Assembly: GCF_900103345.1 (NCBI RefSeq)
Contig: NZ_LT629702.1
Coordinates: forward strand, 4,340,001 to 4,404,000
From: Pseudomonas azotoformans
GTDB taxonomy: Bacteria > Pseudomonadota > Gammaproteobacteria > Pseudomonadales > Pseudomonadaceae
Direction of reading: 5' to 3'
Length of the DNA: 64,000 nt
The notes beneath the pieces were generated by a model. That model did not search any database and had not been told where the DNA came from. It worked only from the letters and a program-made list of their open reading frames with translations. The first letter of the stretch is position 1. Each line of letters starts with the position of its first letter. Below, one piece after another: positions 5,432 through 9,422 of the stretch. Position numbers and translations under genes: made by a program.

Positions 5432-6628
5432 ATGTCCCTGCCAAGCCTGCGTCTCAAAGCCAACGCCGATCGTCGTTTGCGCAACGGCCACCTGTGGGTC
5501 TACAGCAACGAAATCGACGTGGCCGCCACCCCACTTCACGGCTTCCAGGCGGGCGACCAGGCCATCCTCGAAGCGGCCGGCGGCAAGACCCTGGGCATCG
5601 TGGCCATGAGCCCGAACAACCTGATCTGCGCCCGCCTGCTGTCGCGCGACATCAAGTTGCCGCTGGACAAGTCGCTGCTGGTGCACCGCCTGAACGTCGC
5701 CCTGTCCCTGCGCGATCGCCTGTTCGACAAGCCGTTCTACCGCCTGGTCTACGGCGATTCCGACCTGTTGCCGGGCCTGGTGGTCGACCGTTTCGGCGAC
5801 ATTCTGGTGGTGCAGATCGCCTCGGCGACCATGGAAGCGCATAAAGAAGACGTGATCGCCGCCCTGACCCAAGTGCTCAAGCCAAGCGGCATCCTCTTCA
5901 AGAACGACTCCGCCGCGCGCGACGCCGAAGGCCTCAACCGCTACGTCGAAACCGTATTCGGCCTGGTGCCGGAGTGGGTGGCGCTGGAAGAAAACGGCGT
6001 GAAATTCGAAGCCCCGGTAATCCAGGGCCAGAAAACCGGCTGGTTCTACGACCACCGCATGAACCGCGCCCGCCTGGCCCCGTATGCCAAGGGCAAGCGC
6101 GTGCTGGACCTGTACAGCTACATCGGCGGTTGGGGCGTGCAAGCCGCAGCCTTCGGCGCCAGCGAAGTGTTCTGCGTCGACGCCTCCGCCTTCGCCCTCG
6201 ACGGCGTGGAGCGCAACGCCGCGCTGAACGGCTTTGCCGAGAAGATGACCTGCATCGAAGGCGACGTGTTCGAAGCCTTGAAAGAACTGAAAGCCAGCGA
6301 AGAACGCTTCGACGTGATCGTCGCCGACCCACCGGCCTTCATCAAACGCAAGAAAGACATGAAGAACGGCGAAGGCGCCTACCGCCGCCTCAACGAGCAA
6401 GCCATGCGCCTGCTCAGCAAGGACGGCATTCTGGTCAGCGCGTCGTGCTCCATGCACCTGCCGGAAGACGACCTGCAAAACATCCTGCTGACCAGCGCCC
6501 GTCACCTGGACCGTAATATCCAGATGCTGGAGCGTGGCGGCCAAGGGCCAGATCATCCGGTGCACCCGGCAATTGCCGAGACGCGGTATATCAAGAGCAT
6601 TACGTGCCGGTTGTTGCCCAATAGCTGA
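5432..6628 (+). CDS. rlmI: 23S rRNA m5C methyltransferase RlmI family (class I SAM)
   Basis: This is a 398-residue protein. A PUA-type RNA-binding domain at the N-terminus (MSLPSLRLKANADRRL) is followed by an RlmI-type insert. The Rossmann methyltransferase domain then carries VLDLYSYIGGWGVQAA near residue 225 as the SAM motif and DPPAF near residue 300. E. coli RlmI methylates C1962 of 23S rRNA. I chose ATG 5432 because the family begins MSLPSLRL, GGAG lies 8 bp upstream, and a longer reading would run back through the REPIN. A tatact box at 5400-5405 may be its -10 element. A strong hairpin follows the stop. Confidence 0.93.
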   Translation: MSLPSLRLKANADRRLRNGHLWVYSNEIDVAATPLHGFQAGDQAILEAAGGKTLGIVAMSPNNLICARLLSRDIKLPLDKSLLVHRLNVALSLRDRLFDKPFYRLVYGDSDLLPGLVVDRFGDILVVQIASATMEAHKEDVIAALTQVLKPSGILFKNDSAARDAEGLNRYVETVFGLVPEWVALEENGVKFEAPVIQGQKTGWFYDHRMNRARLAPYAKGKRVLDLYSYIGGWGVQAAAFGASEVFCVDASAFALDGVERNAALNGFAEKMTCIEGDVFEALKELKASEERFDVIVADPPAFIKRKKDMKNGEGAYRRLNEQAMRLLSKDGILVSASCSMHLPEDDLQNILLTSARHLDRNIQMLERGGQGPDHPVHPAIAETRYIKSITCRLLPNS

Positions 6629-6640
6629 GTTTTTTCCCGC

Positions 6641-6670
6641 GATGCTGCCCGACTGGCTCCGGGCAGCATC
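6641..6670 (+). terminator. Strong stem-loop after rlmI
   Basis: The arms gatgctgcccg (6641-6651) and cgggcagcatc (6660-6670) are a perfect 11-bp inverted repeat with an 8-nt loop, 12 bp past the rlmI stop. No T-tract follows, so it is not a textbook intrinsic terminator. It may protect the 3' end or stop transcription together with Rho. Base composition drops sharply right after it, marking the edge of the AT-rich island. Confidence 0.6.
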
Positions 6671-6716
6671 AATTCACAAAGCCGACCCTTCATATAAAAG
6701 CAAACTTTTTAATTTT

Positions 6717-6744
6717 TTGTACAAAGTCAAAAACCACATATAGC
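6717..6744 (+). promoter_or_regulatory. Candidate sigma70 promoter of the peptide-SagB island
   Basis: TTGTAC (6717-6722) and TATAGC (6739-6744), separated by 16 bp, resemble -35 and -10 boxes in an AT-rich stretch. If used, the 5' leader before the peptide gene would be about 140 nt. This is sequence resemblance only; other AT-rich boxes nearby could serve instead. Confidence 0.35.
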
Positions 6745-6839
6745 TTCATCGTTACAGCAAAAACATACTACAACGCCACCAGAATCTTCCTACCCCTCCT
6801 GACTAGATATATTTAAAACCAGCGCCTAGCCTAGTTTCC

Positions 6840-6860
6840 GTCACAATCAAATTGTGTGAC
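6840..6860. promoter_or_regulatory. Imperfect palindrome upstream of the peptide gene
   Basis: gtcacaat and attgtgtgac form an imperfect inverted repeat 33 bp before the peptide ATG (a 2-bp insertion in the right arm). It could be an operator for an unlinked regulator. No regulator gene lies in the island, and no experimental family is implied. Confidence 0.35.
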
Positions 6861-6892
6861 AGCTATTTAACTTAATGAAATGGAGAGCTGAT

Positions 6893-6958
6893 ATGAACGC
6901 AATCGTTCTTGAGTCAAAAGCACTGGCAGCATTCGCATTGATCGGAATGCCTAAATAA
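6893..6958 (+). CDS. 21-residue peptide, candidate RiPP precursor or leader peptide
   Basis: The peptide starts MNAIVLESK and ends FALIGMPK before a TAA. A strong ribosome binding site (tggagag, 5 nt before the ATG) makes it a believable gene, although it is far below usual gene-calling limits. Composition: five Ala, three Leu, two Ile and one Ser, no Cys or Thr, two Lys and one Glu. It lies 58 bp upstream of a SagB-type dehydrogenase on the same strand, the place of a precursor gene in ribosomal-peptide clusters. The lack of Cys/Thr and the single Ser argue against a thiazole/oxazole product. Alternatives are a scaffold peptide carrying a small molecule, or a translated leader that regulates the next gene. 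I do not recognise the sequence. Confidence 0.6.
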   Translation: MNAIVLESKALAAFALIGMPK

Positions 6959-6972
6959 GTCGTTGATTACGA

Positions 6973-6995
6973 GCTGGGGTGTACGCCAACCCAGC
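6973..6995 (+). promoter_or_regulatory. Stem-loop between peptide gene and SagB gene
   Basis: gctggg (6973-6978) pairs with cccagc (6990-6995) around an 11-nt loop, placed 14 bp after the peptide stop and 10 bp before the SagB ribosome binding site. It could lower read-through so that peptide is made in excess over enzyme, or stabilise the upstream message. There is no T-tract. Confidence 0.4.
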
Positions 6996-7016
6996 CCTAA
7001 GAACGGGAAGAAAACA

Positions 7017-8099
7017 ATGCAAATAAATCCCAACTTATTTTTCTTAACCAAATCACAACATCTGATTATCTGGAACTACAAAACTCATGAGCAATTTGAA
7101 TTAGATCGCGCGCACTCGCAGCGACTGCTAGAGCTAATATACGACCTTTCGCTTTATGACCCTGAGTTTGAGATCGACTCGACATTCACTCACCATGCAA
7201 TTATTCAACAAGGTGCGCCAACGTTAGATAACCAGTGGGGATGGGATGAATTGTCGAGGATATTCCACATTGGTACAAAAGACTTATCAGACGCTGATCA
7301 ACCTACAGACAGCGTCAGTTGGGCCGCTCATTATTTGGCCCACTGCCAGAGCGTAATGCGCACGAGTCCTCCTGATTCGAATCGGTTCGCCCATCTCCAA
7401 CCAGAAGACTTTATCAGTCTACCGCAACCTTCACCAAACGAATCTCTCAGAACATACCCGTTACTGCAACACACGTTAATTAAGCGAAAAACCTGCCGCA
7501 CCTATTTAAACAAAAGCATTTCTTTAGAAGACCTAAGTACGCTGCTCTACCTATCTCTAGGACACTTAAAAGAACGCCTGCAAGACACCTCACATTTAAC
7601 GCCCTCCTCTTTCCGCGCTAGACGAAGCAGCCCGTCAGGTGGTGGATTAAGCTCCAGCGAAGGTTATATTTATGCGCACAACATAAGAGGCGTAAACCCC
7701 GGATTTTATTATTACCACCCGGAGCTACACGCACTCAGGCTGATTCGCCGAATACAAGAGCCACTTGGAAACTACCTTAACGGCCAGCATTTCATTGACA
7801 ATCTTCCCTTTGGTATTTTTATTACCTCGCGATTCGACAAACTGTGGTGGAAGTACCCACACTCCAGAGCCTACCGAGTTGCCCTGATAGAAGCCGGACA
7901 CATCGCACAAACAGCTCAGCTCATTTCAACCGCCATGGGGCTTAACACTTGGTTGTCCTCCGCTCTCAACGACACCAAGATCGAGAAAGTCCTTGGCATA
8001 CAGGGCATTAAAGAGCAGTTAGTTCTTTTCGTAGGCGCCGGTTACAGCGACGGTCAGGTTTTCAGCGATGAATTCGAAAAGCTTTTGAGGACTGATTGA
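7017..8099 (+). CDS. SagB/ThcOx-type FMN-dependent dehydrogenase
   Basis: This is a 360-residue protein. The C-terminal two thirds is a nitroreductase-fold SagB/ThcOx domain. KRKTCRTYLNKSISLEDLS near residue 160 opens the FMN-binding fold, RRSSPSGGGLSSSEGYIYA near 205 is the family signature, and PGFYYYHPELHAL follows. The first ~130 residues form the N-terminal domain often seen in SagB proteins. In azole-forming RiPP clusters SagB oxidises azolines to azoles with FMN, but no YcaO or E1-like partner is seen here. ATG 7017 was chosen because ggga lies 8 bp upstream and the in-frame upstream stretch overlaps the stem-loop. Base composition is clearly AT-richer than the flanking genes, a sign of transfer. 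The substrate is unknown; the adjacent peptide is the obvious candidate. Confidence 0.88.
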   Translation: MQINPNLFFLTKSQHLIIWNYKTHEQFELDRAHSQRLLELIYDLSLYDPEFEIDSTFTHHAIIQQGAPTLDNQWGWDELSRIFHIGTKDLSDADQPTDSVSWAAHYLAHCQSVMRTSPPDSNRFAHLQPEDFISLPQPSPNESLRTYPLLQHTLIKRKTCRTYLNKSISLEDLSTLLYLSLGHLKERLQDTSHLTPSSFRARRSSPSGGGLSSSEGYIYAHNIRGVNPGFYYYHPELHALRLIRRIQEPLGNYLNGQHFIDNLPFGIFITSRFDKLWWKYPHSRAYRVALIEAGHIAQTAQLISTAMGLNTWLSSALNDTKIEKVLGIQGIKEQLVLFVGAGYSDGQVFSDEFEKLLRTD

Positions 8100-8222
8100 G
8101 GCCTTGGCGATGCAGCCCATTACAGCATGCCTTGGGAAGAGAATGACTCCACCTTTATTGATTGAATTCTCGCCACCCAAGGCTAATATCGGTTTTTGGC
8201 ACCCCACCGGATAACAAATACA

Positions 8223-9422
8223 ATGTCTGAGCCTTCCTGCTCGCCCTTACTCAGCCGCGAGATAAAACGCCACCAACTCTCACGCTTCATCCTCATTACT
8301 TGCATCTCGCTTATCAGCTTCTTCCCGATCAACATCCTGCTGCCCTCCTTTCCCGCCTTGGCTGAAAGGTTCGATACACCCACCGCCGATGTGGCGCTGT
8401 CCATCAGCCTGTTCACACTGGTCTTTTCCATCTCCCAACTGATCACTGGCCCGCTCTCGGATAAATGGGGGCGCAAGGAAGTCCTGCTCGGCTGCATCAC
8501 ACTGTCGATCCTGGGAGCGATCGGTTGTGCACTGGCGCCAGACTATCTGACCTTCTTGTTGTTTCGCAGCGTCCAGGCCCTGGGGTGCGGTTTCTTCGTA
8601 TTGGGCCACGCCCTGGTGGAAGACCTGTTCGAGGAACAAGACCGCGCCCGCGTGCGCCTCTATTACATGACCCTGAGCGGTTCATTCGTCGCGCTGTCGC
8701 CGTTGATCGGCTCCTGGCTGCAAGCCACCTTCGACTGGCAAGGCAGCTTTTATGGGTTCGCCGTGATGGCACTGGGCATGTTGGTCCATGCCCTCTGCAT
8801 CCTGCCGTCCAAGTCCGCCAGCCCGCACCGCATGTCGGTGTCGATCATCGGCACGCTGAAAGCCGTCGCCCGCAACCGCGACTTCCTGCGCTACTGGTGG
8901 ATCGCCGCATTGGTATTCGCGTGTTATTTCGCCTTGATCAGCGTGACACCGCTGATTTTCATGGATGCGCTGAAGCTCTCCGAATACCAGTACGCGCTGG
9001 TGCTGATGGTGTACGGCGTGGCCTATCTGCTGGGCGGCGTTGCAGCCTCGTACCTGCAAAAGCGCATTGCGCTGTCCCGGCAAATCAATATCGGCCTGGG
9101 GCTGCTACTCGTCGCCGGCGTGCTGTTAACGCTGATCGTCAGCCTCGATGCCATTACCACTGTGACGTTGCTCATCCCGATGTTGATCAGCGCCCTGGCC
9201 GTGACCCTGGTTCGCCCGGCGGCGATTTCGGCGGCGATGCTGCTGTTCTCGAGCAGCGCGGGCACTGCCGCCTCGGCGGGTAACAGCATCATGTTCCTGA
9301 CCGCCGCCATCAGCAGTGCCGCCCTGGCGCAAACCGGATCCAACCTATTGATGAGCATCGCCCTGAGCTTCATCGTCTTCAGCCTGTGGGGCTGGCTGAC
9401 CAATGCCAGAACCGGACGCTGA
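8223..9422 (+). CDS. MFS multidrug exporter, Bcr/CflA type
   Basis: This is a 399-residue membrane protein with about twelve hydrophobic segments. Motif A of the major facilitator superfamily is visible as GPLSDKWGRKEV near residue 80, followed by a Bcr/CflA-like RSVQALGCGFFVLGHAL. Members export drugs or self-made small molecules with proton antiport. It follows the SagB gene by 123 bp on the same strand and is the last gene before ilvD, so it may export the island's product and give immunity. Its G+C is close to the host average, unlike the two genes before it, so co-origin is not certain. The start is uncertain: ATG 8223 has a weak ribosome binding site, and a TTG at 8196 is an in-frame alternative. 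Confidence 0.88.
   Translation: MSEPSCSPLLSREIKRHQLSRFILITCISLISFFPINILLPSFPALAERFDTPTADVALSISLFTLVFSISQLITGPLSDKWGRKEVLLGCITLSILGAIGCALAPDYLTFLLFRSVQALGCGFFVLGHALVEDLFEEQDRARVRLYYMTLSGSFVALSPLIGSWLQATFDWQGSFYGFAVMALGMLVHALCILPSKSASPHRMSVSIIGTLKAVARNRDFLRYWWIAALVFACYFALISVTPLIFMDALKLSEYQYALVLMVYGVAYLLGGVAASYLQKRIALSRQINIGLGLLLVAGVLLTLIVSLDAITTVTLLIPMLISALAVTLVRPAAISAAMLLFSSSAGTAASAGNSIMFLTAAISSAALAQTGSNLLMSIALSFIVFSLWGWLTNARTGR

Follow-up and report, generated by a model that had tools for sequence, protein, structure and literature searches.

SagB-type enzymes are commonly regarded as catalyzing an azoline-dependent step within YcaO pathways. In the thiazole/oxazole-modified microcins (TOMMs) and other linear azol(in)e peptides, such as microcin B17, streptolysin S, and the cyanobactins, the Lys-Tyr motif of the azoline dehydrogenases has a catalytic role, and export is by ATP-binding cassette (ABC) transporters. 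The present study concerns an operon in a 64,000-nucleotide stretch of the Pseudomonas azotoformans genome (positions 4,340,001 to 4,404,000 of a 6.73-Mb single contig; hereafter, the window), which consists of a 21-codon open reading frame (ORF), a sagB-type gene, and a gene for a major facilitator superfamily (MFS) exporter. Like the TOMM systems, it has a SagB-type Lys-Tyr dehydrogenase, a predicted recognition element (RRE) of ribosomally synthesized and post-translationally modified peptides (RiPPs), and a putative precursor adjoining the enzyme. Unlike them, its family has neither a YcaO nor an E1-like cyclodehydratase and no Cys, Ser, or Thr position common to all peptides; the putative precursors are mostly 21 to 25 residues long, and export would be by an MFS protein.

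A YcaO-free SagB cluster has been reported from a biocontrol Pseudomonas. The OS3 cluster of Pseudomonas sp. Os17 (Os1348-Os1351) has an 85-residue folded precursor and an HExxH protein (PMC7726476). It resembles the present operon in joining a YcaO-free SagB-type dehydrogenase to a small precursor and differs, as outlined in that report, in its GNAT and HExxH proteins, a 650-residue SagB of another subfamily, and adjacent resistance-nodulation-division (RND) efflux genes (PMC7726476). Loci L076-L079 of our collection (loci are numbered with L and genomes with G) are OS3 relatives by gene make-up, the HExxH model having been tested on L077; in the window, neither an HExxH protein nor a precursor of about 85 residues was seen between rlmI and ilvD. 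BmdC, which serves a nonribosomal peptide synthetase (NRPS), and ThcOx, of a cyanobactin pathway, share with the window's enzyme an RRE-like N-terminal domain and an Ox domain, and the substrates of both are described as azolines (PMC8795117). Furthermore, the gvg cluster for the vinylglycine FVG is described as depending on a pair of small ORFs together with a carbamoyltransferase, a haem-oxygenase-domain protein, and one or more LysE exporters, so that tiny ORFs are essential there to the synthesis of a non-proteinogenic amino acid (PMC8067088, PMC8064604). The family studied here likewise has tiny ORFs and a second oxidase, with a NodU-type carbamoyltransferase in one variant and a LysE exporter in another. 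This likeness is one of described gene content. As differences, gvgB is lysine-rich, and the word SagB is absent from the text of PMC8067088 as available. No carbamoyltransferase ORF lies between rlmI and ilvD in the window.

Genome mining for YcaO pathways has begun from YcaO, according to the account in PMC4603692. A cluster survey of the P. fluorescens group gives microcin-B17-like, lanthipeptide, and YcaO-TfuA RiPPs, and its main text, as available, does not contain the term SagB (PMC8719888). RREs fused to dehydrogenases are called possibly vestigial in the RRE-Finder report (PMC7470986). A description of the operon was not found among the literature matches listed, preprints and most subscription journals being outside the search, and the family of precursor plus RRE-SagB is apparently undescribed.

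We propose that the operon is a cyclodehydratase-free RiPP system, with the 21-residue peptide as precursor, oxidation by the RRE-SagB protein, and export of the product, and we consider this reading probable. The features of the operon are as follows.

6893 to 6958, + strand: 21-residue putative precursor peptide, MNAIVLESKALAAFALIGMPK (ATG at 6893; the stop codon ends at 6958)
7017 to 8099, + strand: RRE-SagB, a SagB-type FMN dehydrogenase of 360 residues (PF00881; TIGR03605 above cut-off)
7017 to 7214, + strand: predicted N-terminal RRE fold, residues 1-66 (AF2 pLDDT 94)
7851 to 7856, + strand: Lys279-Tyr280, corresponding by alignment to the Lys-Tyr motif of azoline dehydrogenases
8223 to 9422, + strand: MFS exporter, Bcr/CflA-like (PF07690; best NCBIfam match, TIGR00710)

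The order on the + strand is rlmI (ending at 6628), the 21-codon ORF, the sagB-type gene, the MFS gene, and ilvD, with 58 bp between the stop of the peptide gene and the sagB ATG (7017). A first-pass annotation of the window had given this layout, including the ribosome site of the ORF, correctly; it had also described the peptide as having no Cys or Thr and a single Ser, with which the sequence agrees.

A search for the enzyme in genome contigs yielded 179 confirmed relatives, the best 80 of which, all Pseudomonas by title, were retained; conservation in 80 of 80 loci thus applies to the nearest relatives only. An ORF of 21 to 24 residues lies upstream of sagB in every one of them, so that the conservation of the peptide frame in relatives, a check set beforehand, held. 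In 77 loci, the ORF fits the pattern M[KN]x[IV]x[LVMI][EQ], and 58 to 89 bases separate its end from sagB; in the remaining three (L088-L090), an equivalent ORF beginning MEK or MEKI was judged by eye. The pattern, which was defined post hoc from peptides already inspected, found no ORF in 4050 single-letter shuffles of the regions ahead of sagB, nor in 81 control windows within sagB. The pooled uncorrected pN/pS was 0.38 in frame versus 1.03 and 2.6 in the other two frames, for 71 peptides of exactly 23 residues (63 distinct DNA and 45 distinct protein sequences), all from loci with an AurF-like gene. Pairwise counts are small, with three synonymous changes and one non-synonymous change between the peptide genes of the window and L083, and four and six, respectively, between those of the window and L085. 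The 21-residue ORF is a real gene, conserved and selected as a protein, and it adjoins a modifying enzyme, as a RiPP precursor gene does. Precursors of such small size would probably be overlooked by gene callers.

Across 13 representative peptides, M1, E7, and K21 are invariant. K21 recurs in 70 of the 71 peptides of 23 residues. Among the 34 loci L033-L066, five have a substitution there; this set of loci overlaps in species with L083-L162, so the two locus sets are not independent. The family-wide signature is M[KNE]x[IV]x[LM]E at the N-terminus, accompanied in most cases by Lys21. Peptides of loci without AurF are of two types, one with [AE]LAAF[AS]LIGMPK (window, L083-L085, and L200) and the other with HHAML (L033 and L086-L091; FHVML in L089 and HHALL in L090). 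The C-terminal IGMPK, which the first-pass annotation had expected to be the mark of such peptides, holds in the window's own subgroup and not family-wide. Ser8 is retained in the window subgroup, as is Thr20 in the one with HHAML. No peptide of the type with the family-wide signature was seen at the SagB-relative loci L076-L079, L080, L081, L191, and L193-L199; L076-L079 belong to the other SagB subfamily, L080 is a remnant only, and L082, an mcb-like cluster, lay outside the precursor search. L195 and L196, from two genomes of another family, have a different 31-residue ORF (MAKKV.NAPKLT.AAGTQTVFFSQGMHYNKR) ahead of another SagB-type gene, and a small ORF of 82 to 103 residues follows in each.

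Eight distant variant loci (L067-L069, L071, L072, L074, L075, and L192) were scanned for the pattern over 15 to 17 kb each, and exactly one ORF, before sagB, matched in each of them. L069, L072, L074, and L075 have a carbamoyltransferase plus another MFS gene, the former established by domain test in L069 and L072 and assigned by clustering in L074 and L075; the ORFs of these loci have 33 to 58 residues, start with M[KN]RV[TI]IEP or MKKIIMQS, and have SNDAY in common. In L071, of another family, a LysE-type ORF overlaps sagB at its end, and an ORF of 38 residues carries a tandem core (VE.KKFCALMPVM twice, with one Cys per repeat). L192 belongs to yet another family; it has the ORF and sagB, no partner is obvious, and farther out are RND efflux and TetR genes.

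These peptide sequences bear on two other explanations. The flavoenzyme could have the peptide as a small subunit, comparable to AlbB in the case of the cyclodipeptide oxidase AlbA, with a free dipeptide or another small molecule as its substrate. To our knowledge, AlbA-like enzymes have no RRE. The peptide is very short for folding, and its core differs between subgroups and is duplicated inside one ORF in L071; we regard the subunit explanation as very improbable. Alternatively, the peptide could be a scaffold, on one end of which an amino-acid-like small molecule would be built, oxidized by SagB, released, and exported. The PEARL systems are scaffold-peptide pathways of this kind. Small molecules are the usual cargo of MFS and LysE exporters, and exporters of these types are what the family has, including the LysE-type ORF overlapping sagB in L071. 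The presence of Lys21 in 13 of 13 aligned peptides and in 70 of 71 would likewise suit a scaffold, as would the precedent of gvg, where small ORFs are described as required (PMC8067088, PMC8064604). However, the peptides end variously (K, AR, AC, or TTC) and Lys21 is not strict, and the hydrophobic middle is as conserved as the ends. A match to PF04738, for a LanB-like peptide-aminoacyl-tRNA ligase, was not found in the window's own genome, which is at most a weak argument against a scaffold, as the control genomes likewise gave none. We consider a scaffold role unlikely.

The partner of the peptide is a SagB-type dehydrogenase by its TIGR03605 score (130.7 bits; cut-off, 78.4). Its best family match is NCBIfam TIGR04511 (SagB_rel_DH_2, a putative peptide maturation dehydrogenase) at 145.5 bits, below the cut-off of 240, and the best structural matches of its whole-chain fold are ThcOx and BmdC. 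The Lys-Tyr pair is the same in all 43 aligned sequences and lines up with the WKY of ThcOx. For the N-terminal domain, the 15 best PDB matches of the predicted fold are all RiPP-pathway proteins. The profile of this domain gave chance hits only when searched against the PDB, and a profile link to PqqD found no support in a weak test of 12 sequences, from which one sequence with stops was dropped and in which L207 was probably taken from the wrong place. It is thus the predicted fold that points to a recognition domain in this pathway.

From this anatomy, the leader M[KN]x[IV]xLE would dock as an edge strand on the RRE domain that is fused to SagB, and a residue in the short hydrophobic core would lose two hydrogens at the FMN site. 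The core may be about ALAAFALIGMP, flanked by two lysines. Going by the usual roles of such genes, host peptidases would free the modified core for export by the MFS protein. Related operons add a second tailoring enzyme, either an AurF-like diiron oxygenase or a carbamoyltransferase. The computed support for the precursor reading consists of the conserved and selected peptide gene, its tie to the SagB lineage, the RRE-like fold, the Lys-Tyr pair, and the lack of a conserved YcaO. Membership in the RiPPs at large is supported by prediction.

The lack of a YcaO follows from counts in 36 cluster-bearing genomes, namely 35 with a full-length enzyme match of at least 43% identity, found besides the window's own among 194 genomes searched, plus G522. 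The window's genome, genomes with broken copies (G006, G043, G110, and G488), G465, and those with carbamoyltransferase and LysE variants (G004, G007, G039, G066, and G185) were outside this count. Four of the 36 genomes (G034, G057, G107, and G111) have no YcaO match at all; one large YcaO (an open frame of 656 to 776 residues, commonly about 736) is present in 30, and a YcaO of 404 to 453 residues, beside or instead of the large one, occurs in nine only. Thus, 27 genomes have no YcaO beyond, at most, the large one, and no YcaO partner is conserved with the operon. A trans-acting YcaO as conserved partner was rejected on these counts, and on the YcaO feature the operon falls outside the TOMM class.

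An ordinary azole-forming TOMM system could still draw on a cyclodehydratase encoded elsewhere in the genome. The window's genome has two YcaO genes, the large one and a 397-residue one in a microcin-B17-like cluster, and possible azoline residues exist in Ser8 of the window subgroup, Thr20 of the HHAML subgroup, and the Cys of each L071 repeat. However, that cluster, with a McbB (TIGR04424 above cut-off) and its YcaO, has its own SagB-type dehydrogenase, none of these residues holds a family-wide position, and the genome counts oppose such a partner. We consider this explanation extremely improbable for the family, and a YcaO acting in trans for the window alone, where Ser8 is kept, is unlikely. 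The microcin-B17-like cluster lies at about 2,401,900 to 2,404,750 of C1 in the window's genome (L082:6141-8981); by eye, an ABC ATPase and permease appear beside it and an NRPS-like ORF further out. The first-pass annotation had seen no YcaO near the sagB gene and had left a conserved partner elsewhere with a separate precursor as a way in which its idea could fall; the counts and the separate dehydrogenase of the microcin-B17-like cluster leave that idea standing.

Several RNA and control elements surround the peptide gene.

6789 to 6793, + strand: CCTAC box, a putative regulatory element upstream of the peptide gene (motif count across loci)
6840 to 6860, + strand: 5′ hairpin GTCACA...TGTGAC upstream of the peptide start (folding z-scores across loci)
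6882 to 6887, + strand: Shine-Dalgarno sequence GGAGAG of the peptide gene (from the sequence)
6973 to 6995, + strand: 3′ hairpin in the gap between the peptide gene and sagB (folding z-scores across loci)

A GGA lies within 20 bases ahead of the peptide gene in 80 of 81 loci (counting the window) and ahead of sagB in 13 of 81; the window's sagB has a fair ribosome site, GGGAAG. The 5′ hairpin region has z < -1.5 in 71 of 81 loci versus 16 of 81 control windows, and the 3′ hairpin in 71 of 78, L088-L090 not being caught by the pattern; the stem sequence of the latter varies between subgroups, and the window's own 3′ hairpin is weak (z of -1.3 on single-letter shuffles). The ribosome sites and hairpins together would fit a highly made precursor before an enzyme made in small amount. 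The CCTAC box occurs at -160 to -40 in 75 of 81 loci, the window included and mostly near -97, versus 18% in single-letter shuffles, and may be a regulator site; by eye, it often sits within GGAA-N-TTCCTAC. Besides, CANGGA, which we take to resemble an RsmA/RsmE site, is present within 20 bases before the peptide gene in 56 of 81 loci and before sagB in one of 81, and Gac/Rsm control of the peptide gene is possible. Rfam gave no match in 6600 to 7100.

Translation of the ORF could instead control sagB through the intervening hairpin, making the peptide a regulatory leader. The frequency of that hairpin would fit this, and so would the loci with a broken sagB (L070, L075, L129, and L168) in which the peptide is intact or nearly so, and hence without visible dependence on a working enzyme. 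In L073, however, where sagB is also broken, the ribosome site of the peptide gene is lost and the near-invariant Glu7 is changed to Gln. Selection at the amino-acid level, the tandem core repeat in L071, and the RRE-like domain on SagB also count against a leader, and no terminator-like site was called at the window's 3′ hairpin. Attenuation by a leader peptide is disfavored on the grounds of the selection, the missing terminator-like site, and the L071 repeat, and we hold a regulatory leader to be quite improbable. The first-pass annotation had left precursor, scaffold, and regulatory leader side by side; the recognition fold, the tandem core in one relative, and the conservation at the amino-acid level favor a precursor or scaffold over a leader. 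Its core idea of a peptide-based, YcaO-free island with an exporter holds, while its interpretation overall is only in part supported.

Returning to the precursor reading, an MFS gene follows sagB in all 80 relatives and hence in 81 of 81 loci with the window. The window's exporter scores 186.2 bits against TIGR00710, below the cut-off of 200.9, and its ORF starts at about 8223 (ATG), with a TTG at 8196 as alternative start. Two MFS-like ORFs stand in tandem after sagB in L088 (5807-8756). Between sagB and the MFS gene, 71 of the 80 relatives have an AurF-like diiron oxygenase (PF11583), which is absent from nine (L083-L091) and from the window; the window thus holds the minimal, AurF-free variant of the operon. 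Asn13 of the peptide is found in 71 of 71 AurF-bearing loci versus none of 10 lacking AurF, and the distant AurF-bearing L067 and L068 likewise carry AN[LF]. In the tree, the nine AurF-lacking sequences included form one side of a branch (98/93), which is compatible with one event, and the association of Asn13 with AurF is therefore only a hint.

A wider proposal, which we put forward tentatively and would not yet favor over its negation, is that the operons form a so far undescribed class of RiPPs that is widespread across Pseudomonas. In it, RRE-SagB would directly desaturate or otherwise oxidize a non-azoline residue of a precursor of 21 to 25 residues, and in the AurF-bearing branch, the diiron oxygenase would modify Asn13 to an N-O or hydroxylated residue. 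The pair of precursor and enzyme would be the constant core, and swaps of the second enzyme (none, AurF-like, or carbamoyltransferase) would diversify the product.

The operon also stands out by its base composition. In agreement with the sharp drop over the first two genes reported in the first-pass annotation, the G+C content is 0.42 to 0.51 across 6800 to 8000 of the window versus about 0.59 to 0.65 on either side. In the 71 AurF-bearing loci, the mean is 0.45 upstream of sagB and 0.54 within it, versus a flank mean of 0.62 (rlmI in 67 loci and ilvD in 66). Since the low G+C is seen again in relatives, it is a trait of the module and alone no proof of recent transfer. L083 and L085, the two nearest relatives of the window, have an opposite-strand ORF of about 590 residues between the MFS gene and ilvD (L083:7395-9179 and L085:6050-7813) that the window lacks. 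By enzyme identity, the nearest named relatives are P. pisciculturae (92%) and P. nabeulensis (90%). G052 holds two copies of the operon (L035 and L050), one at the rlmI-ilvD site and the other elsewhere.

Within the operon, the RRE fused to SagB would be the sole recognition device. RRE function and azoline-free oxidation by a SagB-type enzyme would thus be directly testable with one peptide and one enzyme. The operon is frequent, and its natural variants offer ready comparisons.

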